From: Polyangium spumosum
GTDB lineage: Bacteria > Myxococcota_A > Polyangia > Polyangiales > Polyangiaceae
Length of the DNA stretch: 64,000 nucleotides
Assembly (NCBI RefSeq): GCF_009649845.1
Contig: NZ_WJIE01000008.1
Span: forward strand, 186,001 to 250,000
Direction: 5' to 3'
Part shown: piece by piece, positions 2,044-19,320 of the stretch
Position numbering within the stretch: position 1 is the first letter of the stretch
How the letters are laid out: every line of letters begins with the position of its first letter
The notes under the pieces: generated by a model
Told to the model about the DNA's origin: nothing
Database searches by the model: none
The model's input: the letters and a program-made list of their open reading frames with translations, nothing else
Translations under genes and position numbers: made by a program

Positions 2044-2249
2044 CACGGCCGCTCGGGCCCCGTGGCGGGCCCGCGCCCTCCTCCCCCTTCTGTCATACCG
2101 TCCGCCTCGAAGTCCCCCACCTTGCCAGCTTGTCAGCGCCCCCGTTGACCCCGCCGACATTTTGGCCGGGAATAAAGCATCTACCCCTGCAAATCGCGGG
2201 GATTTTGTGATCCTCCAGGCTGGCCCGCGGCTTGCGATGGACGCCTGGC

Positions 2250-2582
2250 ATGAGCCGAGAAGCCCTTGCCAGAGAGGTCGAGAAGGATTCGCGTGGTGGT
2301 CGGACCGTGCTCGTCATCGGCGGGAGCGGGGGGATGTCGGATCGGTATCGCGACGTCGCCGAGAAACACGGCTTGACGCTCAAGCACTACGAGACCCGCG
2401 TGCCGAAAGGCGTGCGTCGCGACGTGGGGAAGGTGGCCCTCGTCATCATCATGGTGACCATGGTCTCGCACGCGCTGCGCGATCAGGTGCACAACCTCGG
2501 GATCAACGACGCGCCCGTGGTGTATCTGCGGAGCGCGTCCGTCTCGGCGCTTCGTGGCGCGCTCGAGCAGTGGGAGGCGTGA
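2250..2582 (+). CDS. DUF2325 domain protein
   Basis: From the ATG at 2250 the product is 110 residues. It contains a TVLVIGGSGG strand-loop near the N-terminus, a central VALVIIMVTMVSHALRD stretch and a final small alpha/beta part ending at ALEQWEA. This is the usual shape of DUF2325, a small Rossmann-like domain whose role is not established. A TTG six codons earlier is a less likely start. The acyl-CoA synthetase gene follows after 17 bp on the same strand and may be cotranscribed. A 57-bp piece of this gene is duplicated upstream at 690-747. Confidence 0.8.
   Translation: MSREALAREVEKDSRGGRTVLVIGGSGGMSDRYRDVAEKHGLTLKHYETRVPKGVRRDVGKVALVIIMVTMVSHALRDQVHNLGINDAPVVYLRSASVSALRGALEQWEA
2275..2331 (+). 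repeat. Source copy of the duplicated DUF2325 fragment
   Basis: This intact in-frame copy lies inside the DUF2325 gene and encodes the segment leading into TVLVIGGSG. It differs by one base from the fragment at 690-747. Confidence 0.85.
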
Positions 2583-2599
2583 TAGGCTCGCGCGCCAGC

Positions 2600-4294
2600 A
2601 TGACAACGAGACGGAACCCGGTTGACGCTCGGGGCTTCGGGTCGCCTTCGGCGCCCTTCGCCCCGAACCCCTACGAAGAGCTGCCCCGCACGCAGGCGAA
2701 CTACGCCCCGCTCACGCCGATCACGTTCCTCGAGCGCGCGGCGGCCGTCTTCCCGGATCGAATCGCCGTCGTGCACGGGCGACAGCGGTTCACGTGGGCG
2801 AACGCTTTCGAAAGGGCGCGGCGGCTCGGTTCGGCGCTCACGCGGCGTGGGATCGGCGTGGGGGACACGGTGGCGGTGCTCTTGCCGAACATCCCGGCCA
2901 TGCTCGACGCCCATTTCGGCGTGCCCATGACGGGCGCGGTGCTGAACACGCTGAACACGCGCCTCGACGCGGCCACGATCGCCTTCATGCTCGATCACGC
3001 GGAGGCGAAGGTCTTGCTCGTCGATCGCGAGCTCGCGGGGACGGCGCGGCAGGCGCTCGCCCTCGCAGCGGCAAAGCCGCTCGTCGTCGACGTCGACGAT
3101 CCGATGTACGAGGGGCCGGGCGAGCGGATCGGCGCGCTCGATTACGAGGATCTGCTCGCCGAGGGGGATCCCGCCTTTTTGCCGCGCGTGCCCGGGGACG
3201 AGTGGGAGGCGATCTCGCTCAACTACACCTCGGGGACGACCGGCGATCCCAAAGGCGTCGTGTATCACCACCGCGGCGCGTACCTCAATGCGATCGGCAA
3301 CATCGTCACCTGGAGCATGCCGAAGCACGCCACGTACCTGTGGACGTTGCCCATGTTCCACTGCAATGGCTGGTGCTTCACCTGGACGATGGCCGCGAAC
3401 GCCGGGACGAACGTCTGTCTACGCAAGGTCGACGCGAAGAGCGTGTTCGAGGCGATGCGCGAGCACCGGGTGACGCATTATTGTGGCGCGCCGATCGTAC
3501 ACGCGATGCTGGTGAACGCCGATCCCGCGCTCCGGGAGGGCATTTCCCATCGCGTGCACGCCATGGTGGCCGCGGCGGCCCCGCCGGCGGCGATGATCGA
3601 GGGGATGGAGCGGATGGGCTTCGAGCTCACGCACGTCTATGGTCTGACCGAGACCTACGGGCCCGCGGCCGTCTGCGAGAGGCACGAGGACTGGGCGGCG
3701 CTCGACATCTCGCGCCGGACGGAGCGCATGGGCCGTCAGGGCGTGCGATACCTCGTCGAGGAGGGGCTCACCGTGATGGATCCCGAGTCCATGCAGACCG
3801 TGCCCGCCAATGCCGAGGTGATGGGCGAGGTGGTGTTCCGCGGGAACATCGTCATGAAAGGGTACCTGAAGAACCCGCGCGCCACCGAGGAGGCCTTCCG
3901 GGGCGGCTGGTTCCACTCCGGGGATCTCGCGGTCCTCCAGCCGGACGGGTACGTGAAGATCAAGGATCGCTCGAAGGACGTCATCATTTCAGGCGGTGAA
4001 AACATCTCCTCGCTGGAGGTGGAGGACACGCTCTATCGCCACCCCGCCGTCCTCGCCGCGGCCGTCGTGGCGGCCCCGGATCCGAAATGGGGCGAGACCC
4101 CGCTCGCGTTCGTCGAGGTGAAGGAGGGCTCTCCGGTCACCGAGGTCGAGCTCATCACGTTTTGCAGGACGCACCTCGCCCATTTCAAGGCCCCGCGCAA
4201 GGTCGTCTTCGGCCCGCTGCCCAAGACGTCCACGGGCAAGATCCAGAAGTTTTTGCTGCGCGAGCGCGCGCGGTCGAGAGACGCGATCGAGTGA
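2600..4294 (+). CDS. Acyl-CoA synthetase (AMP-forming, fatty-acid ligase family)
   Basis: The 564-residue product is a full-length ANL-superfamily enzyme. It should activate a carboxylic acid with ATP and join it to CoA. The P-loop-like YTSGTTGDPKG motif, the LPMFHCNGWCFTW segment, the A5 motif HVYGLTETYGP, the hinge region FHSGDLAVLQPDGYVKIKDR and the C-terminal PKTSTGKIQKFLLR with the catalytic Lys are all present. The FHCNGW segment points to the medium/short-chain or DmdB-like branch, but the substrate is not certain. The ATG at 2600 gives the usual length; the frame upstream overlaps DUF2325 and is not coding. It converges on a PLP-enzyme gene 5 bp away. Confidence 0.93.
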   Translation: MTTRRNPVDARGFGSPSAPFAPNPYEELPRTQANYAPLTPITFLERAAAVFPDRIAVVHGRQRFTWANAFERARRLGSALTRRGIGVGDTVAVLLPNIPAMLDAHFGVPMTGAVLNTLNTRLDAATIAFMLDHAEAKVLLVDRELAGTARQALALAAAKPLVVDVDDPMYEGPGERIGALDYEDLLAEGDPAFLPRVPGDEWEAISLNYTSGTTGDPKGVVYHHRGAYLNAIGNIVTWSMPKHATYLWTLPMFHCNGWCFTWTMAANAGTNVCLRKVDAKSVFEAMREHRVTHYCGAPIVHAMLVNADPALREGISHRVHAMVAAAAPPAAMIEGMERMGFELTHVYGLTETYGPAAVCERHEDWAALDISRRTERMGRQGVRYLVEEGLTVMDPESMQTVPANAEVMGEVVFRGNIVMKGYLKNPRATEEAFRGGWFHSGDLAVLQPDGYVKIKDRSKDVIISGGENISSLEVEDTLYRHPAVLAAAVVAAPDPKWGETPLAFVEVKEGSPVTEVELITFCRTHLAHFKAPRKVVFGPLPKTSTGKIQKFLLRERARSRDAIE

Positions 4295-4299
4295 CGCCG

Positions 4300-5322
4300 T
4301 CAGCCGGCTTCTTCGGGGGAGGAGAGAATCCCGCGGAGCGTGGCCTCCGCGACGTTGCGGCCCGTGACGACGTTGACCACCTTCGGCCGCGCGACGCCGG
4401 TGCGTGAGAGGTCGATCTTCCCCGCCAGCAGCGCGGCCGCGCCCACGGCGGCCGAGCCCTCCACGACGAGCCGCTCTTCCCGTAGGAAATGGCGCATGGC
4501 CTCGGCGATCTCGGCCTCCGTGACGAGGACCATGTCGTCGAGGAAGCGGCGGCAGAGGTCGAACGTGATCGAGCCGGCCTCGATATTCCCTGCCAATCCG
4601 TCCGCGAGGCTCGCGAGCTCCGGGGCGTCGGTGATTTTCCCCGCGGCGAGGCTCGAATGCATGGCGGGCGAGGCCTCGCTTTGCACGCCGACGACGCGGG
4701 TGCGGGGCGCGACCGATTTCACATAGAGCGCGATGCCCGCCGCGAGCCCGCCGCCGCCGACGGGGACGACGACGAGATCCACGTCGGGCAGGTCCGCGAG
4801 GATCTCGACCGCGACCGTACCCGCGCCGGCCACGACGTCGGCGTCGTTGTAAGGCGAGACGAACGTGAGCCCGCGCTCTCGCTCGATGCGCCGGCCGTCG
4901 GCCTCGGCGACGTCGTAATTGCCCACGGAGACGATGAGCTCGACGGGGTATCGCCAGAGGGATTCGAGCTTGGCCGGTGAAACCGTGCGGGGCACGACGA
5001 GCGTGGAGCGCGCCCCGAGCGCGGCCGTGGCGTGGGCGAGCCCGAGGCCGTGGTTGCCGGCCGAGGCGGCGACGAAGCCGCGCCGGAAGACGTCCTGCTC
5101 CTCGTCGCGCAATCGGAGCAGCTTGTTCGCCGCGCCCCGCACCTTGAACGAGCCCGTGGGCTGGAAGAGCTCGAGCTTGTGAAAGACGTCGGCCGGGATC
5201 GTGGCCGAGAGCGGCAGGCTCCGATCGAGCGGCGTCTGCCTCACGAGGCCGCCACTCGCGGCGAGCCGCTTTTGCGCCGCGAGCACGTGCCGCGGCGAGA
5301 TCGAGGGGAGGGAGTCGTTCAT
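4300..5322 (-). CDS. Threonine/serine dehydratase-like PLP enzyme
   Basis: The 340-residue product is a fold-type II PLP enzyme. The Schiff-base Lys60 sits in PTGSFKVRGA, followed by the SAGNHGLGLA loop and the phosphate-binding PVGGGGLAAG turn. The length fits catabolic threonine ammonia-lyases without a C-terminal ACT domain, which make 2-oxobutanoate and ammonia from threonine. Related serine racemases or dehydratases cannot be excluded. The ATG at 5322 is the only methionine near the conserved N-terminus. The GH92 gene upstream ends 16 bp before this start, so the two may share a transcript. Confidence 0.88.
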   Translation of the reverse strand: MNDSLPSISPRHVLAAQKRLAASGGLVRQTPLDRSLPLSATIPADVFHKLELFQPTGSFKVRGAANKLLRLRDEEQDVFRRGFVAASAGNHGLGLAHATAALGARSTLVVPRTVSPAKLESLWRYPVELIVSVGNYDVAEADGRRIERERGLTFVSPYNDADVVAGAGTVAVEILADLPDVDLVVVPVGGGGLAAGIALYVKSVAPRTRVVGVQSEASPAMHSSLAAGKITDAPELASLADGLAGNIEAGSITFDLCRRFLDDMVLVTEAEIAEAMRHFLREERLVVEGSAAVGAAALLAGKIDLSRTGVARPKVVNVVTGRNVAEATLRGILSSPEEAG

Positions 5323-5338
5323 GTTCGAATCGTTTTCA

Positions 5339-7666
5339 TCAAGGCGTGGTGACGCCGAAGGAGCCGGGGGAGGGGCCCATCTCGAAGCGGAGCGCGCCGC
5401 CCTGCGCGAGATCCCCGTGGAGGATCTCGCTTTTGTCGAGGGTTTTGCCGTTCCAGGTGACCGATTGCACGTAGATGTTCTCGTCCGAGACCGCGGGGGC
5501 CTCGACGACGAGCGTCGCGCCACGGATGAGGATCTCCATGCGGGGGAAGAAGGGCGCGCCGAGGATGTACCGATCGGTGCCGGGGATCGGATAAAAGCCG
5601 GCGGCGGTGAACAGGTACCAGGAGGAGAGGGTGCCGCCGTCGTCGTTGCCGGCGAGGCCGCCGGGGCCGTCGTTGTAATGGGCCTTCGCCACCCAGCGGA
5701 TGTATTTCTGCGTCAGATCCGCCCGGCCGACCTGCGCGAAACCATACGCCGCGTGGATGTCCGGCTCGTTGCCGTGCCAGTAGGCGTTTCGCGGCGCCCC
5801 GGAGGCGAAGGTGTCCTCGATCGGGCGCTCTTCGAGGTCCGCGACGGATTCGTCGAAGAAGCGCTGGAGCTTCTCGACGAACGGCTCCTGTCCGCCGAGG
5901 AGCTCGGCGATCCCGGGGATGTCGTGCTGCGCCCACAGGCTGTGCCAGCCGTTCGCCTCGGCGTAATGGTCGGAGATGGAGTACGGGTTGTACGGGTCCT
6001 CGACGAAGGCCCCGCTCTCGTCCCTGGCGCGGATGAAGCCCGTGGCCGGGTCGAAGAGGTTCCTGTGGCTCTTCGCGCGTTCGGTGAACATGGCCGCGTC
6101 GTCCGCCTTGCCGAGCGCCTTGGCGAGGAGGCCGAGCGCGAGGTCGTTGTGCGCGTATTCGAGCGTATGCGAGGCGGATCGGCCGATATTCGCGGGCACG
6201 TAGCCATGTTGCATGTACGGCACGGCGTGGTTCCGGCCGCCGCGCCCGCCGGGCGGATCGGCCGTGTCGGCGGCCGCGCGCCGGGCGATCTCGTACGCGC
6301 CCTCCGCGTCGAAATCGGTGACGCCCTTGATGTAGCTGTCCGCGAGCACCACGTCGGCGCTCGCCCCGATCATCGTGCCCGCCTCGCCCGTGGCGATGGG
6401 CCATTTCGGATAGAAGCCCGAGATATCGGCCATCGCGTGGAGCGATCGTACGGTGTCGAGCGCGGCCTCGGGCGCGACGAGCGAATAGAGGGGGGTCACC
6501 GTGCGGTAGGTGTCCCAGAGGGATTGATCGGTCAGGAAGGAAAAACCTTCCGCGATGCGCTCCTCCCCGCCGTAGAGGTACCGGCCGTCGACGTCGCTCG
6601 ACGCGGTGGGCATGAGGAACGCGCGGTAGAGCGACGAATAAAACATGCGCCGCTCGGCCTCCGTGCCGCCCCAGATCGTCATGCGGCCGAGGAGATCGCC
6701 CCACGCCGCCGCCGTTTTCGCCCGCGTGCCGTCGAAATCCCAGCCCGGGAGCTCGGCCTCGAGGTTCTCCGTGGCGTTCTCCAGCGAGACGAACGAGAGC
6801 CCGATCGCGAGCTCGACCGCCGCGTCCGCGCCGAGATCAAACGAGAGCGCGAAGCCGACCTTCGTGCCGCTGCCGGAGACGCCCTCGGCGGGGGCGTCGC
6901 CGTTCGACCAGACCCGCGCGGCCTTCCACGGCGCGCGTGTTCGAGCATCAAAAAAGACGTCGTAGCCCCCGAAGCCCTTCGACATGCCGCCGACGTGGTG
7001 GAGCTTGCCGCGGATCCGCTGCGCCTCGGGCTCGAGCGTGAACTCGGCCTGCGTGACCTCGCCCCCGCTCAGGTGATGGTCGAGATCAAAGACGACGTGC
7101 CCCTCCTTCGTGCCCGCCGGATACCCGTGCCGGTGCTGCGCCGCGTGGCGCGTCGCCGTGAGCTCGCTGCGGATCGAGCCCCGATCGAGGGTGACCGCGT
7201 AATACCCCGGCGAGGCCGTCTCGGTCGCCTTGTCGAAGGGCGACTCGTAGCCGGGGGCGGAGAAGCGCGAATCCTCGAAGGCGTCGACCGCCATCACGCC
7301 GAGGACGCCATAATCGGTCGCGCCCGTGCCGTGCAGGTGCAGGTGCGAAAACATCCGGACCTGATCGTCGCCGGCCCAGTAGCCCGAGTAATGCAAAAAA
7401 TTGATGGTGTCGTAGGGGCCGCGGGTATCGGGCCCGACCTTCGCCAGGCCGAACGGCGCGGCCGCGCCGGGGAACGCGCTGCCATTCGCGAAGCCGAACC
7501 CGCCGCTGCCGATCCGCGGATCAGCGTACGCGAGCGGATCCTCGACGCGCGTGGGCTTCGCCGTGGGCACCTCCTGGGGTTCGAGCGTGCACCCCGTTCC
7601 GCCGAGGACGTTCGTCAGAGCGAGCGCGAGGAGGGGCGCGAAGGATCGGTCGAGGCGAGGGCGCAT
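5339..7666 (-). CDS. GH92 family alpha-mannosidase, putative lipoprotein
   Basis: The 775-residue product has a signal sequence ending near GGTGC, so it is likely exported and lipid-anchored. The mature part starts DPLAYADPRIGSGG, typical of glycoside hydrolase family 92. Other family hallmarks are MFSHLHLHGTG, LWDTYRTVTPLYSL, the HGNEPDIHAAYGF stretch and the GNDDGGTLSSWYLF then GFYPIPGTDRYILG block. GH92 enzymes are calcium-dependent exo-alpha-mannosidases, often alpha-1,2-specific, acting on glycoprotein mannans. The linkage used here is not known. The gene is divergent from a kinase gene across 91 bp, which must hold both promoters. The role fits a predatory or polymer-degrading life style. 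Confidence 0.92.
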   Translation of the reverse strand: MRPRLDRSFAPLLALALTNVLGGTGCTLEPQEVPTAKPTRVEDPLAYADPRIGSGGFGFANGSAFPGAAAPFGLAKVGPDTRGPYDTINFLHYSGYWAGDDQVRMFSHLHLHGTGATDYGVLGVMAVDAFEDSRFSAPGYESPFDKATETASPGYYAVTLDRGSIRSELTATRHAAQHRHGYPAGTKEGHVVFDLDHHLSGGEVTQAEFTLEPEAQRIRGKLHHVGGMSKGFGGYDVFFDARTRAPWKAARVWSNGDAPAEGVSGSGTKVGFALSFDLGADAAVELAIGLSFVSLENATENLEAELPGWDFDGTRAKTAAAWGDLLGRMTIWGGTEAERRMFYSSLYRAFLMPTASSDVDGRYLYGGEERIAEGFSFLTDQSLWDTYRTVTPLYSLVAPEAALDTVRSLHAMADISGFYPKWPIATGEAGTMIGASADVVLADSYIKGVTDFDAEGAYEIARRAAADTADPPGGRGGRNHAVPYMQHGYVPANIGRSASHTLEYAHNDLALGLLAKALGKADDAAMFTERAKSHRNLFDPATGFIRARDESGAFVEDPYNPYSISDHYAEANGWHSLWAQHDIPGIAELLGGQEPFVEKLQRFFDESVADLEERPIEDTFASGAPRNAYWHGNEPDIHAAYGFAQVGRADLTQKYIRWVAKAHYNDGPGGLAGNDDGGTLSSWYLFTAAGFYPIPGTDRYILGAPFFPRMEILIRGATLVVEAPAVSDENIYVQSVTWNGKTLDKSEILHGDLAQGGALRFEMGPSPGSFGVTTP

Positions 7667-7757
7667 ACAAGGTGATGCGAGCACGAAGGAGCCCGAGCCG
7701 TCAACCCGAGCCTTGCGACGACGCGCGAGATCCCTTAGCGTGGATTTGGCGCTCGGT

Positions 7758-9278
7758 ATGAATGACCTCATCGGCGGCCGATACCGGATCGAACGCAGGC
7801 TCGGCGCAGGCGGAATGGGTGCCGTCTACGAGGCCACCGATACGCAGGGCGGCGCGCGGGTCGCGGTGAAGGTCGTGACCGCGGAGGTCGCGAAGAACGA
7901 GGTGCTGCTCGGGCGCTTCGAACGCGAGGTGCGCGCGGCGCGTGGGCTCGACACGCCACACGTGGTGCGCGCGATCGACGCGGGGCGCGACGGCTACTCG
8001 GGCCTGCCGTTCCTCGTGATGGAGGTGCTCGAGGGCGAGGACGTGCGGGCGCTCCTGAAGCGCCTCGGCCCGGTGCGCCCGGATCTCGCGGTGCGGATCG
8101 TGGCGCAGGCGTGCCGCGGGCTCGAGGTCGCGCACGCGCAGCGCATCGTGCACCGCGACGTGAAGCCGGCGAACCTGTTCCTCGCGAGGAGCCAGGTGCC
8201 CGGCGAGCGCGTGGTCAAGATCCTCGACTTCGGCATCGCGAAGCTCGCGCCGGATCCGGAGAGCATGGCCGAGGCGGGTGAGCTGACGAGCCTGACGCAG
8301 ACCGGCAGCATGCTCGGCTCGCCGCTCTACATGGCGCCGGAGCAGGCGCGCGGGCACAAGCACATCGACGGGCGCGCCGATCTCTGGTCGCTCGGCGTGG
8401 TGCTCTACCAGGCCCTCACGGGCGTGACGCCGCACCAGGACAGCGGCGCGCTCGGGGACCTGATCATCGCGATATGCACCGAGCCCGCCGAGCGCGTGGA
8501 CAAACTCGCGCCGTGGGTCCCGCCCGAGGTGGCGGCGGTGGTGCACCGCGCGCTCGACCTCGATCCGACGGCGCGTTTCCAGAGCGCCTCGGAGATGCTC
8601 GCGGCGCTCGTCCCGCTCCTGCCCGCCGGCGAGGCGAACGCCGCGATCCACGAGGGGATGCTGATCCCGCTGCCGGGGCCGGAGCGCGCGCGGCTCTCAG
8701 TCCCGCCGCGCCCGCCGAGCGGAGCACCGACGCTCTCGGAACCGCCGCCTGCCCATCCGCGAGCTCCGGCCGCGGAGGCGGGTTCGCACACGCTCGCGGA
8801 TCCCCCGACGACGCGCTGGTCGAGCGCAGGGCTCGGGATCTCGGCCGAGACGCCCGCGGCCATGCAGATCGGCGGGCCCGCGTCCGTGCCCGTCGCCATC
8901 ACGCAGGCGACGCCGCCGAAGCGCCGCGCGGGCGCGCTGGCCGTCGTGGCCATGGCGGCGCTCGCCCTCGTCGTGGGAGGCAGCGTCGCCTTCGTGGGCC
9001 TGCGGGCGCCGGCGGCGGGGTCCGGGCAGGCCGCGGCAGGACAAACCAATCCAGGACAAACGCCGACCGGGATCACGAACACGACGTCGCCCGTCGAACC
9101 GACGGCCGCGGAGCCCGCGGCGACGGCGCCGGTCGAGGCGACAGCCGCGCCCAGCGCGGCGCCCGTGGCCCCGAGCGGCAGCGCATCCGGGCGCCTCGCG
9201 CCCTGGCCCAAGGCGACTTCGCGCGGAACCGCCGCGCCGAAGCCCACGGGCAAGAGCGACATTTACCTGGGTCGGTGA
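7758..9278 (+). CDS. Hanks-type Ser/Thr protein kinase with one transmembrane anchor
   Basis: 506 residues. The N-terminal kinase domain, about 8-285, has the Gly loop GAGGMG, Lys38 in VAVK, Glu56, HRD with Asp134, DFG at 157-159 and MAPEQ near 192-196. It therefore looks active. A Pro-rich linker leads to a hydrophobic segment at about 391-414, and about 90 low-complexity Ala/Thr/Pro residues lie beyond it, presumably outside the inner membrane. The ATG at 7758 starts just before the kinase fold. Only 3 bp separate its stop from the TonB-receptor gene, so the two are surely cotranscribed and probably functionally linked. Confidence 0.92.
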   Translation: MNDLIGGRYRIERRLGAGGMGAVYEATDTQGGARVAVKVVTAEVAKNEVLLGRFEREVRAARGLDTPHVVRAIDAGRDGYSGLPFLVMEVLEGEDVRALLKRLGPVRPDLAVRIVAQACRGLEVAHAQRIVHRDVKPANLFLARSQVPGERVVKILDFGIAKLAPDPESMAEAGELTSLTQTGSMLGSPLYMAPEQARGHKHIDGRADLWSLGVVLYQALTGVTPHQDSGALGDLIIAICTEPAERVDKLAPWVPPEVAAVVHRALDLDPTARFQSASEMLAALVPLLPAGEANAAIHEGMLIPLPGPERARLSVPPRPPSGAPTLSEPPPAHPRAPAAEAGSHTLADPPTTRWSSAGLGISAETPAAMQIGGPASVPVAITQATPPKRRAGALAVVAMAALALVVGGSVAFVGLRAPAAGSGQAAAGQTNPGQTPTGITNTTSPVEPTAAEPAATAPVEATAAPSAAPVAPSGSASGRLAPWPKATSRGTAAPKPTGKSDIYLGR

Positions 9279-9281
9279 CGC

Positions 9282-12167
9282 GTGTCCCTCGCACGTTGCT
9301 TTCGCGCCGCCCTCGGACCCGTCCTCGCCGCCTTGCTCGTGCTCTCGGGCGCGGGCCGCGCCTCGGCCGATGGGCTCGCGGACGAGGCCGAGCTCCATTT
9401 CCAGCTCGGCGCCGCCGATTACCAGAGGGGCGAGTACACGAGCGCGCTCGAGCATTTCCTGCTGTCGAACCGCCTCGTCCCGAACCGGCGCGTCGTCTTC
9501 AACATCGCGCGCTCGTTCGAGCAATTGAACAAATGGCCCGACGCGCACCGCTACTACGTCGACGCCCTCGCCGGGGAGACGGATCCCAACGCGATCGAGG
9601 CCTCGAAGGCGGCCATCACTCGCCTCGCGCCGTACGTGGCGATCCTCGACGTCGTGACGGATCCGCCGGGCGCGACCATTTACATCGACCGCAAGGATCT
9701 CGGCTCGCGCGGCCACGCGCCGCGCCCGCTCGCCGTGGCCGAGGGCAAATACCGCGTGATCGCCGAGCTCGCCGGGTACGAGCCCGCCACGAGCGAGGAG
9801 CTCGTGGCGAAGCGGGGGAGCGCGACGCGTGTCTCGCTTTCGCTCGCGCGGATCGTCGGCAAGGTGAAGGTCACGGTGACGGGAGCGCCGCGGGCGGCGG
9901 TGCGGGTCGACGCGGAGACGGGACCGCCCGCGTGTTTCGCGCCGTGCGAGCTCGCGCTGCCCCCGGGCAAACACGATCTGTACGCGACGGCCGAGGGCGC
10001 GACCGCGCCGGCGCGGCCGGTGAACGTCGTGGCCCGCGAGACGACCGCGGTGAGCCTGACGGTGCGGCCGCCGGTGGGCACGGTCGTCGTGGGGACGACG
10101 GAGCCGGGCGCGCTCGTGACCGTCGACGGGCGCGCGGCCGGTTTTTCACCCGCGGTCCTCCGCGAGGTGCCCGCGGGGCCACGCAAGGTGCGCGTGAGCA
10201 TGCCCGGACACGCGCCCGTGGAGCGCGAGGTCGTGGTGCGGCAGGGCGAGCAGGTGGATCTCGGCACGCTCGACCTCGTCCCGCTGCGCGAGGTGACGGC
10301 GGCGTCGCGCTTCGCCGAGCGGATCGAGGACGCGCCGAGCTCGGTGACCGTGATCGACAGGCGCGAGCTCGCGGCGTTCGGATACCCGACGATCGCGGAG
10401 GCGCTGCGAGGCGTGCGGGGGATCGCGATCTCGAACGACCGGGCGTATGCGTCGGCCTCGATCCGGGCGATTGGCCAGCCAAACGATTATGGCAGCCGCG
10501 TGCTCGTGCTCTCGGACGGGCAGGCGCTCAACGACAACCTCCTGAACAGCTCGTACATCGGCTCCGACGCGCGGGGCGATCTGCACGATATCGATCGGAT
10601 CGAGATCGTGCGTGGCCCGGGCTCGCTCCTGTATGGCGCGGGCGCATTCTCGGGCATCGTGAACCTCGTGACGCGCTCGCGGGAGGAGCCGACGGGCGTG
10701 CACGTGGGGGTCGGGAGCTACGACGGCGGGGTCTTGCGCGGTCGCGGCGGGTTTCACCTGCGGAAGGGGCAGGACAAGGGGATCTGGGCGAGCGGGTGGG
10801 GGGCCCATTCGGACGGGTTCGAGCTGGAGGTGCCGGTCACGGGCGCGCCCCAGCCGTTCCGAGCGCGCGGGGTCGAGGCCTTTCGAGCGGGCGGCACGGC
10901 CGGTCGCGCCTACTGGGGCCCGGCCACGTTGCAATGGTTCGTGCACCACCGGACGCAGGCGAGCCCGGTGGGCGGTTATGCCACCGAGCTAGGTAACCCG
11001 CGGACCTCGTTCGGCGATACGCGCATGATGGTGGAGGCGCGCTTCGAGCCGCGCCTCACGCAATCCTTGCAATTGCTCGTGCGGGCGCACGCGAACCGCT
11101 ACACGTACGACGGGCTTTATGCCTTCGAGGGGGAGGTCGACAACATCGAGACCTTCGCCGGGACGTGGATGGGCGGCGAGGCGCGGCTCGTGTATTCGCC
11201 GAGCCCGCGGCTCCGGGTCACGGTGGGCGGCGAGGGGCAATGGCACCCGGAGGCGACGCTGCTCGGGCGCGAGGACGTGAATCGCGCGACCACGGAGCAA
11301 TACCTCGAAGAGCGGCGCCCGTACAGGTTTGGCGCGGCGTACGCGCTCGCGGAGGGCGCGCCGCTCTCGTGGCTCCGGCTCTCGGGCGGCCTGCGCATCG
11401 ACGTCTACAGCACGTTCGGCGCGGTCTTCGTGCCGCGTATGGCCATCATCACCCGGCCCGCGAAGGGCGGGACGTTGAAGCTCATGGGCGGCCGCGCGTT
11501 CCGGGCCCCGAGTATCTACGAGCAGCTCTACAACGACAATGGCCAGTCCCACCTGAAGCCCAGGCAAGACCTCGACGCCGAGAAGATCTGGTCGGGCGAG
11601 CTCGAATACACGCAGCGGTTCTTCGAGGATTGGGCGGCGCTCGCGGCCGTGCACGGCAGCCATATCGACGGGCTGATTTTCACGCGGCCCATCGACGGGG
11701 GACCGACGGTGGAATACGCGAACAGCAGCACGGGGATGCTCGTGCTCGGCGCGGACGCCGAGATCCGGCGGGAATGGCGCAAGGGGTGGATGCTCGCGGC
11801 GACGTACGGGTATCAGCGCGCGACGTACCTCGATCCCGCGCTCTCGGATCCGCGGGTGCCGAACGTGCCCGAGCACCTGGCGGGCTTTCGCGGGGTGGTG
11901 CCGATCGTGCCCTCGATCGCGTCGCTCGGGCTCCGCGCGACGCTGGAAGCCCCGCGCCTCGTCGCTGGCGGCGGCGCGACGCCGACCCAGGTCGTCGCGG
12001 ATATCACGGTGTCGGGCGAGGTGAAATCGTACGGCCTGCGGTACGTCATCGGGGTCTACAACCTCGCCGATCGCCGCGTGCTCGTGCCCGTGACGGACAC
12101 GTTCCGGAGCCGGACGATGCCGCAGAATGGTCGGACGTTCCTCGTCGACCTGATGGGGACGTATTAG
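9282..12167 (+). CDS. TonB-dependent receptor with N-terminal TPR and three PEGA domains
   Basis: 961 residues. A signal peptide (cleavage after about Ala29, GRASA) precedes a TPR-like helical part at 35-110. Three PEGA-type beta domains follow at about 121-188, 192-262 and 265-333. The receptor plug comes next, at about 338-470, with SVTVIDRRELAAFGYPT and IEIVRGPGSLLYGAGAFSG. The remainder reads as a beta-barrel and ends in an aromatic residue (LMGTY), as outer-membrane proteins do. No TonB box is obvious. The GTG at 9282 is chosen because the signal peptide starts there. Placing periplasmic PEGA/TPR modules on a TonB receptor, 3 bp after a Ser/Thr kinase, is unusual. The substrate is unknown. 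Confidence 0.88.
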   Translation: MSLARCFRAALGPVLAALLVLSGAGRASADGLADEAELHFQLGAADYQRGEYTSALEHFLLSNRLVPNRRVVFNIARSFEQLNKWPDAHRYYVDALAGETDPNAIEASKAAITRLAPYVAILDVVTDPPGATIYIDRKDLGSRGHAPRPLAVAEGKYRVIAELAGYEPATSEELVAKRGSATRVSLSLARIVGKVKVTVTGAPRAAVRVDAETGPPACFAPCELALPPGKHDLYATAEGATAPARPVNVVARETTAVSLTVRPPVGTVVVGTTEPGALVTVDGRAAGFSPAVLREVPAGPRKVRVSMPGHAPVEREVVVRQGEQVDLGTLDLVPLREVTAASRFAERIEDAPSSVTVIDRRELAAFGYPTIAEALRGVRGIAISNDRAYASASIRAIGQPNDYGSRVLVLSDGQALNDNLLNSSYIGSDARGDLHDIDRIEIVRGPGSLLYGAGAFSGIVNLVTRSREEPTGVHVGVGSYDGGVLRGRGGFHLRKGQDKGIWASGWGAHSDGFELEVPVTGAPQPFRARGVEAFRAGGTAGRAYWGPATLQWFVHHRTQASPVGGYATELGNPRTSFGDTRMMVEARFEPRLTQSLQLLVRAHANRYTYDGLYAFEGEVDNIETFAGTWMGGEARLVYSPSPRLRVTVGGEGQWHPEATLLGREDVNRATTEQYLEERRPYRFGAAYALAEGAPLSWLRLSGGLRIDVYSTFGAVFVPRMAIITRPAKGGTLKLMGGRAFRAPSIYEQLYNDNGQSHLKPRQDLDAEKIWSGELEYTQRFFEDWAALAAVHGSHIDGLIFTRPIDGGPTVEYANSSTGMLVLGADAEIRREWRKGWMLAATYGYQRATYLDPALSDPRVPNVPEHLAGFRGVVPIVPSIASLGLRATLEAPRLVAGGGATPTQVVADITVSGEVKSYGLRYVIGVYNLADRRVLVPVTDTFRSRTMPQNGRTFLVDLMGTY

Positions 12168-16037: not shown

Positions 16038-17081
16038 TCAGAAATGGCCAAACGCCGAAGCGCCGACGCCGGAGGGGCCGATCCACGGGACGAACCCGGC
16101 CTTCGGCGCGGCCTCGCCCTTCTTCGGCGCCGTCACGATCCCGTAGATGGCCGCGCCGATCCCCGCGGCGCCGACGACGCTGCCGGCCACGGTGAGCCCG
16201 AGCGTGCGGTTCCACCTCGCCTGCAGGGCTTGCGCTTCTTGTTGCGTGTAGCTCTCGTTGCAGGCGTTGTTCGGGCAGTCGCGGCTCACGGTCTCCTGCG
16301 CGTCGGCGAAGCTGAGCCCGAAGCCCACGGCCACGCCGGCCCCGACGAGCCCGACGCCGCCCGCGATCCAGGCCCACACCGGGATCTGCCGGCCGCCGCC
16401 TTCGGTGCCTGCCGTCGAGGAGAGATCGTCCGGCTCGCCGAACGGATCCACGACGTCCGCGCCGTCCCCCGTCGCCGGGCGCAACGTGACGTCGACGGCG
16501 CGGGTTTGTCCTGCCGTGACGCTCACCTTTTGTTGCGCCTGACCGAAGCCCGGGGTCGAGACCATGACCGTGTGTTCGCCCGGGTTGACCTTGTAGGGCA
16601 ACGAGATGGCCGCTTGTGGGATGGTCTCGGCGTCGACCTTGACGGTGATCTTGGCGCCCTCGGGCGGGCCGCTCACGTTGATCACGAGCGAGGGGATCTT
16701 CGGCTCGAGGGCCTTCGCGAGGGCCTCGGCCTCGGTCATGGCCGTGGCGAAGGCGTCGTTGCCGGCGGCGTTGTCGAAGCGCGTCACCTCGAGGGCGATC
16801 TCGCGCGCCTCGACGAGGCGGCCCATGGCCTCGTGCACCCGCGCGAGATCGAGCCCCGTCGAGGGCACGCCCATGATCGCGTGCGCGCCCTGGCAATCCT
16901 TGAGCGCCTCCGGGAGCTTGTTCGCGGCGAGCTTGGCCCGACAGTCGACGAGCAGCTGCCGCGCCGTCTGCTTGGCGGCGGCCGAGGGTTGTTTTCCCTG
17001 GGCGTTCGCCGCCCCGGAGAGGGAGAGGCCGAGCGCGACGATCGTCGCTGCGGCACCGAGTCGAGAGGGCGTTTGGCGCAT
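16038..17081 (-). CDS. TPR-PEGA domain membrane protein
   Basis: 347 residues. A signal peptide (cleavage near Ala27, GAANA) is followed by a TPR-like helical part at 35-125 and a PEGA domain at about 131-200, with the GEHTVMVSTPGFG turn. Two hydrophobic segments lie near 234-256 and 296-318 and flank a small loop with two cysteines. The bulk should sit in the periplasm, anchored in the inner membrane. The start lies 11 bp after the stop of a Ser/Thr kinase gene, so the pair forms an operon. This kinase-PEGA arrangement is common in myxobacteria. The ligand and role are unknown. Confidence 0.85.
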   Translation of the reverse strand: MRQTPSRLGAAATIVALGLSLSGAANAQGKQPSAAAKQTARQLLVDCRAKLAANKLPEALKDCQGAHAIMGVPSTGLDLARVHEAMGRLVEAREIALEVTRFDNAAGNDAFATAMTEAEALAKALEPKIPSLVINVSGPPEGAKITVKVDAETIPQAAISLPYKVNPGEHTVMVSTPGFGQAQQKVSVTAGQTRAVDVTLRPATGDGADVVDPFGEPDDLSSTAGTEGGGRQIPVWAWIAGGVGLVGAGVAVGFGLSFADAQETVSRDCPNNACNESYTQQEAQALQARWNRTLGLTVAGSVVGAAGIGAAIYGIVTAPKKGEAAPKAGFVPWIGPSGVGASAFGHF

Positions 17082-17092
17082 GGAACCGTTGC

Positions 17093-18544
<1,452 letters not shown>

Positions 18545-18672
18545 CCACCCGAGCCTTTCCGCGCGGCCGCCCCGGCCCCGGGAGGCGAGGGCGGCTCGGT
18601 CGGAACGTACACGATTTCGGGATGGGATCGTAGCTTCCTGCCAGAACCCGACGGCGCGGAGAGGCTGCTGCG

Positions 18673-19320
18673 TCAGCGCCCCTTTTCGCTGACCGGCCGC
18701 AGCGGCCCGGGTTCGCCCTCGGCGAGGGTCTCGCGCTCGCGCTCCTGCGTGAGGCCGCGGCTCGACGAAAGTTTCGTGTCCTCGTGAGGGTTCTCCGCGC
18801 GGACGACCGACTCCGCGTGAGCTCGTTCGGGCGCGGCCTCGCTGACCGGCTTCTGGCTGCCGGGGCGGCCCGTGGCGAGCGTGTGGCCCTCGCCGAGCGC
18901 GGGCTCGGGGGGCTTTCGCAGGTGCGCGGGAGGCGCGGGCAGCGGCGCGCGGGGCGCGAGCAGGGCGGCGAGCTCGGGCCCGAGGTGGCGGCGCAGGCGG
19001 ACGCGGGTGGTCTCGGGCAAGCGGTCGCCGAGGACGCCGAGGACGAGGCGGCTGTGCTCGATGGCGAAGCCGATGAGCGTGCCCTCGCGGTCGGCGACGC
19101 GGCGGTAGAGCGCGTCCTCGGCGAGGTTCCCGGCGTGTGGCCCCGCGAGGACCCAGGCGGCGAGCGGCGCGGGCAGCGCGTGCGCGAGGGCGCGGGCCTC
19201 GTCCAGCACGAGCGCCTCGGCGAACGCCGCGAGGACCACCTCCACGATCCTCCGCGCGCTCGCAGCATCCCCGAGGCCTCCGCGCCACGCGACCTCGTCC
19301 AGGAACGTCGCTTCATCCAT
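18673..19320 (-). CDS. DUF2267 domain protein
   Basis: 215 residues, cytoplasmic. Residues 1-130 show the two-helical-repeat character of DUF2267: FLDEVAWRGGLGDAASA, then a second FAIEHSRLVLGVLGDRLPE block, ending with an LGPELAALL segment. The last 85 residues are polar, Glu/Arg/Pro-rich and probably unstructured. The role of DUF2267 proteins is not established. The gene is upstream of and co-directional with the kinase-PEGA pair and may be read from the same promoter. Confidence 0.82.
   Translation of the reverse strand: MDEATFLDEVAWRGGLGDAASARRIVEVVLAAFAEALVLDEARALAHALPAPLAAWVLAGPHAGNLAEDALYRRVADREGTLIGFAIEHSRLVLGVLGDRLPETTRVRLRRHLGPELAALLAPRAPLPAPPAHLRKPPEPALGEGHTLATGRPGSQKPVSEAAPERAHAESVVRAENPHEDTKLSSSRGLTQERERETLAEGEPGPLRPVSEKGR

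Follow-up and report, generated by a model that had tools for sequence, protein, structure and literature searches.

Why would a gene for a protein kinase sit next to a gene for an outer-membrane receptor? In the 64,000 nucleotides of Polyangium spumosum DNA that we analyzed (the window), a gene for a Hanks-type Ser/Thr kinase (7758–9278, + strand) is followed on the same strand by a gene for a TonB-dependent receptor with TPR and PEGA domains (9282–12167, + strand). A preliminary description of this locus, made from the sequence alone, had placed the two genes 3 bp apart, and this is exact: 3 bp separate the stop codon of the kinase from the GTG start of the receptor. It also suggested a two-membrane signaling pair, in which PEGA domains might bind polysaccharide and the kinase might regulate an outer-membrane gate. 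A two-membrane pair of kinase and receptor is well supported, both by the predicted folds and by the gene linkage, but we found no support for polysaccharide binding by PEGA or for gating of the channel by the kinase. We propose that the kinase and the receptor are a trans-envelope signaling pair in which the tail of the kinase docks on the TPR-PEGA module of the receptor (with a probability of roughly 0.6).

The kinase has 506 amino acids, and its stop codon is at 9276–9278. Its catalytic domain (residues 9–280, 7782–8597; PFam PF00069, E = 5e-44) contains both HRDVKPAN and DFG, as expected for a Hanks kinase. The hydropathy maximum past the kinase domain lies at about residues 395–415 (8940–9002), so we predict a cytoplasmic catalytic domain, a single transmembrane helix, and a periplasmic tail of about 91 residues past the hydrophobic segment. 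This extracytoplasmic tail, which had been noticed before, consists of a low-complexity linker rich in proline, alanine, and threonine (9003–9254), with low pLDDT, and of a C-terminal peptide, SDIYLGR (9255–9275), which is an instance of a conserved I-x-x-x-R-COOH motif. The best NCBIfam match of the kinase is the PknB family (NF033483), at 260.6 bits versus a cutoff of 450 bits, and the match ends at residue 295; a PFam scan of the tail found neither PASTA nor any other sensor domain. Thus, the kinase is laid out like PknB and other PASTA kinases, with a cytoplasmic domain, a transmembrane helix, and an extracytoplasmic tail, but the tail is a linker with a short C-terminal peptide and is tied to an outer-membrane receptor. 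(On the other side of the kinase, a gene for a GH92 glycosidase, at 5339–7771 on the − strand, is divergently oriented. Its longest frame overlaps the start of the kinase by 14 nt, and the true start of the GH92 gene probably lies further in.) A scan for promoters, with the sigma-70 consensus only, and for terminators found none.

The receptor has 961 amino acids. Residues 1–30 (9282–9371) are a signal peptide region, which we assigned by eye: a hydrophobic stretch precedes the conserved mature start, and pLDDT is below 50 at residues 1–11 and 21–29. Next are a TPR module (residues 31–118, 9372–9635), PEGA domain 1 (residues 119–189, 9636–9848), a PEGA-like beta-sandwich (residues 190–263, 9849–10070), and PEGA domain 3 (residues 264–333, 10071–10280). 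These are followed by the segment EVTAASR (residues 337–343, 10290–10310), which we take to be a putative TonB box and in which E, V, A340, S, and R are conserved in at least 30 of 34 receptors; by a plug domain (residues 345–465, 10314–10676; PF07715, E = 1.8e-18, 67.4 bits versus a cutoff of 23.9); and by an outer-membrane beta-barrel (residues 466–961, 10677–12164; PF00593, E = 6.9e-18).

The preliminary description had read the N-terminal part as a TPR-like part and three PEGA domains. PFam only goes part of the way: it finds PEGA in two stretches (E = 2e-27, 95.3 bits versus a gathering score of 20.8), makes no call for the second sandwich, and scores TPR_2 slightly below its cutoff (E = 7e-6, 26.2 bits versus 27). 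The AlphaFold2 model of the receptor (mean pLDDT 87.1, pTM 0.71) does have the full set, with five TPR-like helices at residues 32–118, three beta-sandwiches (approximately residues 119–189, 190–263, and 264–333), and a plugged barrel. Furthermore, a profile of the receptor family matches designed TPR proteins in the PDB at positions 34–104 (E = 1.7e-23). By both PFam and AlphaFold2, the PEGA-type folds are distinct from the plug and the barrel. Because PEGA domain 3 is the strongest of the genome's 39 PEGA matches, and because 33 out-of-genus receptors can be aligned along their full length (40–61% identity), this architecture is not due to chance. The best-conserved parts of the receptor are the TonB-box-like segment (3.18 bits per column) and the plug (3.34 bits per column). 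Within the N-terminal extension, the TPR is conserved the most, at 3.0 bits per column versus 2.3–2.8 for the PEGA-type domains.

The plug and the barrel have a familiar fold, like that of CirA, BtuB, and PfeA; Foldseek with these two domains finds PfeA, BtuB (1nqg, TMt 0.84), and Cir. The nearest relatives of this part are CirA, YncD/PqqU, PfeA/PirA, and BtuB, which are too remote to name a substrate by homology. CirA, BtuB, and PfeA are not known to have a TPR-PEGA extension. With the N-terminal part as the query, the best Foldseek matches are designed TPRs and sandwich proteins, namely a Gram-positive surface protein (1e-11), a pilin, and carboxypeptidase D. The third PEGA domain also matches CarboxypepD_reg in the PFam scan (33.6 bits, cutoff 32.3), and a beta-sandwich ahead of the plug is reminiscent of SusC-like receptors with a CarboxypepD_reg extension. 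But the receptor in the window has three PEGA-type domains and a TPR, with a kinase as its partner, and a PFam scan of eight nearby frames in the window found no SusD-like protein.

Is this receptor a local oddity? Its nearest named relatives are from Polyangium fumosum and three other Polyangium strains (88–89% identity), and a search of genome contigs for related loci turned up four loci from Polyangium and a single distant match to a plug. Searching further, we found receptor matches with E ≤ 1e-30 in 34 of 59 close relatives (counting its own genome; in three of them, only the N-terminal part matched), with E ≤ 1e-80 in 83 of 183 genomes of the order (including partial matches), and with E ≤ 1e-60 in 75 of 377 genomes sampled across the phylum. 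Of these 75 genomes, 43 are from outside the order, and the N-terminal part was matched in 39 of the 43. The 39 receptors that we aligned have the complete architecture in common. Given the broad spread of its homologs and their common architecture, the receptor is, as judged from sequence comparisons, an old myxococcotal type and not a local chimera.

The linkage to a kinase is kept as well. We considered three sets of loci: 40 loci from close relatives (set 1), 66 new loci from the order (set 2), and 40 loci from outside the order (set 3). A locus was considered testable if at least 1.2 kb of DNA was available upstream of the receptor (a threshold that we chose afterwards), which sets aside as cut off four loci from set 1 (L026, L066, L070, and L076), seven from set 2 (L204, L217, L240, L253, L258, L262, and L264), and five from set 3 (L277, L279, L287, L301, and L302). 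A kinase lies directly upstream on the same strand in 108 of the 130 testable loci: 33 of 36 in set 1 (with the stop codon within 219 nt), 46 of 59 in set 2 (with the stop codon within 350 nt of the receptor match), and 29 of 35 in set 3. There is no adjacent kinase in the other 22. If L301 (with 1,132 nt upstream and no kinase domain seen) were scored as a miss, the count would be 108 of 131. L261 was scored as unlinked, with its kinase match 1,163 nt away, though a frame just 5' of its receptor ends in IRRQR. These loci are not independent: set 1 includes five from the window's own genus, and sets 2 and 3 include several congeners.

As a control, we compared gene coordinates in three genomes (G000, G036, and G025). 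A same-strand kinase is just upstream of 5 of 5 PEGA-type receptors, versus 2 of 23 other plug receptors, with kinase lists limited to the best 150 of 289, 275, and 190 candidates, so that a weak kinase could escape. Both of the kinase-linked receptors among the 23 belong to a second kinase–receptor family (see below). (An earlier version of this control gave 6 of 6 versus 2 of 24, from 30 of 34 plug loci; its flanks were too short to reveal all kinases, and we redid it in three of its four genomes.) We did not find a third conserved gene: after removing frames that overlap the pair, a given flanking frame is seen in at most 6 of the 35 out-of-genus loci in set 1. We also considered programmed read-through of the kinase's stop codon and rejected it: of the 33 relatives with a kinase, 22 have a spacing that is not divisible by three.

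The kinases that are linked to these receptors end alike. All 34 kinases of set 1 have a hydrophobic segment with 86–187 residues beyond it, and all 34 keep HRD and DFG. (In three kinases, from L046, L047, and L077, the catalytic loop reads HRDVSPHN or HRDATPHN, with Ser or Thr in place of the usual Lys.) Their linkers are rich in proline and alanine and are poorly conserved; the typical end is D-I-x-[LMT]-x-R-COOH. We fixed a loose pattern, [ILVMF]xxxR-COOH, on these first 34 kinases and then applied it to the new kinases of the other sets, where it fits 45 of the 46 from set 2 (all but a kinase ending in LDIKLTH) and all 29 from set 3. Altogether, the loose pattern is found in 107 of the 108 receptor-linked kinases, and the strict form, with Ile at the fifth position from the end, is found in 92 of 108 (29 of 33, 37 of 46, and 26 of 29 in the three sets). 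The window's kinase is outside the 108 and is an additional match. Among 29 distinct kinases from set 1 (including the window's, with its genus counted once), the terminal Arg is found in 29 and Ile at the fifth position from the end in 25, and ungapped identity is 44% over the last six residues, versus 14% over the preceding 34 residues.

The strict pattern occurs at 3 and the loose pattern at 42 of 5,760 internal positions in the tails of sets 1 and 2. Of 40 complete control kinases, drawn from the window's own genome, which has at least 151 kinases, 10 end in Arg, five fit the loose pattern, and none fit the strict pattern. The conserved C-terminal peptide, which the preliminary description had missed, is new here and is the most telling element of the pair.

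Some cut-off or broken loci also have a fitting frame just 5' of the receptor (L026, L070, L217, L261, L277, L279, L287, L301, L302, and L308); these frames were sought in all reading frames, which yields some fits by chance, as in L209, L218, and L272, which fit the loose pattern. Neither a kinase nor the strict motif was found in L049, L072, L206–L211, L218, L244, L265, L272, L298, L300, L305, or L311. Separately, four loci without a kinase (L068, L247, L248, and L263) have a frame that ends in RPLGIEIER*, just 5' of the receptor, which may be what is left of a former kinase tail. These four are from one genus and amount to one observation, and a fifth locus of that genus (L264) lacks the frame.

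Does the peptide simply mark one lineage of kinases? When receptor linkage is mapped as a label onto a tree of 182 kinase domains, it requires 15 changes, at least seven of which are forced by well-supported branches (in set 3, kinases were labeled as linked only if they had the motif). For instance, the window's kinase and three others adjoin another Polyangium kinase whose tail ends in QLKLKVE. A single clade of receptor-linked kinases is rejected by the AU test (p = 2.9e-5; 55 rows, with 30 linked kinases and 25 of 51 controls, which were picked after the first tree was seen, the controls all being from the window's genome). The linked kinase domains thus fall into more than one clade, and the peptide seems to go with the receptor partner and not with the lineage of the kinase. 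The distance matrices of kinases and receptors are in weak agreement (r = 0.35, n = 28, versus at most 0.21 among 2000 permutations), which swapping of kinase domains could explain.

Kinases beside other kinds of partners have other ends. In a family of secreted TPR-PEGA proteins related to that of L084, 30 loci yielded 23 kinases, of which 18 end in Leu or Ile, often as P-x-H-L; those that do not are for the most part from the remotest members. For the secreted TPR-PEGA relatives of L107, 14 loci yielded 11 kinases; nine of these have Phe as the last residue, typically within PKVxxIxF. (Both families, whose relatives are L141–L184, include several members from the window's genus.) The stand-alone TPR-PEGA proteins that are nearest to the receptor's N-terminus have an adjacent kinase in 4 of 11 cases; the tails of these four end in APALAPR, EPLVPR, SLPIKQVF, and SLPMKTEL, so that two end in Arg and none fit the motif. 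The window itself holds another kinase with a PEGA partner, at 16038–19288 on the − strand: the kinase (17093–19288) has the C-terminus KGGKDTIGF and is followed by a PEGA protein of 347 amino acids (16038–17081).

The second family of kinase–TonB receptor pairs is represented by L098, from the same genome as the window. Its receptor (at 2172–4820 of that locus) has a TPR and a plug but no PEGA match, and its kinase (4896–6722) has a PEGA domain in its own tail. In this family, 15 of the 19 kinases that were found among 30 loci end in K-x-x-P-Y (six of the 15 are from the window's genus), and the other four end in KPNPYGD, YKDNPFGN, GYKGAY, and GFKGAY. Both receptor families have a TPR in common, whereas PEGA is found on different partners: on the receptor in the window's family and on the kinase in the second family.

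The closest known parallels are in cell-surface signaling. FecA and FpvA each have an N-terminal periplasmic domain that is paired with an inner-membrane anti-sigma regulator (such as FecR). FoxA and FoxR have the same layout: the extra N-terminal periplasmic domain of the outer-membrane receptor is contacted by the C-terminal domain of the inner-membrane regulator (according to PMC11637429). The receptor in the window likewise has an extra N-terminal periplasmic part and an inner-membrane partner. However, its extension is TPR-PEGA3, the partner is a Ser/Thr kinase, and the proposed contact is a short C-terminal peptide. PFam scans found no STN or secretin-type signaling domain in the receptor and no member of a sigma or anti-sigma family in the eight nearby frames of the window. 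Since the FecA-type signaling domain and regulator are lacking, the pair is not a member of the FecA-type transducers, but by analogy it may work alike. We found no paper that describes a kinase paired with a PEGA-TonB receptor; most subscription papers were outside the coverage of our literature search, so an earlier notice is possible.

How would such a pair work? We propose that the receptor is a TonB-dependent gate in the outer membrane whose TPR and three PEGA-type domains would hang into the periplasm. The kinase would be anchored in the inner membrane and its catalytic domain would face the cytoplasm, while its disordered, Pro/Ala-rich tail would span the periplasm. The last residues of the kinase would then dock on the TPR-PEGA module of the receptor, most likely on the TPR. 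The engagement of ligand or of TonB at the gate would alter the contact with the tail, and thereby the clustering and the activity of the kinase, so that an event at the outer membrane would lead to phosphorylation in the cytoplasm without an anti-sigma factor. What the data show are the domains, the conserved gene pair, the C-terminal peptide, its presence in several kinase-domain lineages, and the contrast between partner families; the docking, the TPR as its site, the outside-in direction, and the activation are the parts of this proposal that we infer.

We favor the TPR as the docking site because it is common to both receptor families, because it is the best-conserved part of the extension, and because TPRs commonly bind free C-termini. 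Like HOP TPR2A, which binds Hsp90, and Pex5, which binds PTS1, the module has a TPR fold, but this TPR would be periplasmic and the putative peptide ends in Arg. In the Foldseek results, HOP TPR2A, Pex5, and a designed TPR with the Hsp90 peptide rank only with the generic TPR matches (E = 1.7e-3 to 8e-3). We also modeled the tail and the receptor's N-terminus as a single chain with AlphaFold2 (with TGA as Trp and no free carboxylate; 11 of the 40 rows had both parts). Judged by pLDDT and secondary structure, no ordered contact was seen: the tail's pLDDT was mostly under 50, while the receptor's N-terminal module was mostly above 90 per ten-residue block.

The pair might instead work from the inside out, with the catalytic domain sensing the state of the cytoplasm and the kinase controlling, via its tail, the opening, assembly, stability, or placement of the receptor. 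The structural and genomic evidence is silent on the direction, and the tail is laid out like TonB, with an inner-membrane anchor, a Pro-rich linker, and a C-terminal contact. However, we know of no route by which a cytoplasmic kinase domain would act in the periplasm, and a conserved TonB-box-like segment is already there to energize the receptor, so we consider this unlikely, though it is the alternative that we take most seriously. Less likely still, the peptide would not dock on a partner but would be recognized by a periplasmic protease or chaperone, and the two genes would be no more than co-regulated. Periplasmic PDZ proteases do read C-termini, and the three other kinase families mostly have hydrophobic or aromatic ends. 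But the motif in the window's family ends in Arg, it is shared by kinase domains from separate clades, and within one genome the motif varies with the partner family.

A final alternative is that the receptor only tethers the kinase, holding it at the outer membrane for positioning, and that signaling is independent of transport. The close spacing of the genes (in 7 of 33 loci, given the starts chosen by a script, they overlap by 4 nt) favors joint production and not signaling as such. A pure tether would need neither a plug nor a TonB-box-like segment, yet these are the receptor's best-conserved parts, and we think this alternative is quite improbable. Our preferred reading is still that the kinase and the receptor signal across the envelope through the docked tail. 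If this is true, then there would be a direct line from an outer-membrane receptor to a cytoplasmic kinase, as a kinase counterpart to the sigma/anti-sigma systems.

More broadly, the Myxococcota might use such tails as "address peptides." The disordered periplasmic tail of a single-pass Ser/Thr kinase, with a partner-specific end motif, would plug into the TPR or TPR-PEGA module that is encoded by the next gene: I-x-x-x-R would be the address for PEGA receptors, K-x-x-P-Y for TPR receptors, and P-x-H-L or PKV-x-x-I-x-F for secreted TPR-PEGA proteins. Kinase domains would be swapped between addresses, and the address, rather than the kinase, would decide what is sensed. We would give this broader reading about even odds. 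To our knowledge, it is largely open which signals are sensed by the extracytoplasmic parts of myxobacterial kinases. These kinases are numerous, with 353 Ser/Thr kinases in Minicystis rosea and 317 in Sorangium cellulosum So ce56 (as given in PMC8436480). A C-terminal peptide that tracks the type of the neighboring TPR or PEGA partner gives a readable rule for pairing kinases with sensors. And if the address reading is true, then it would mean that hundreds of paralogous kinases are insulated from one another.
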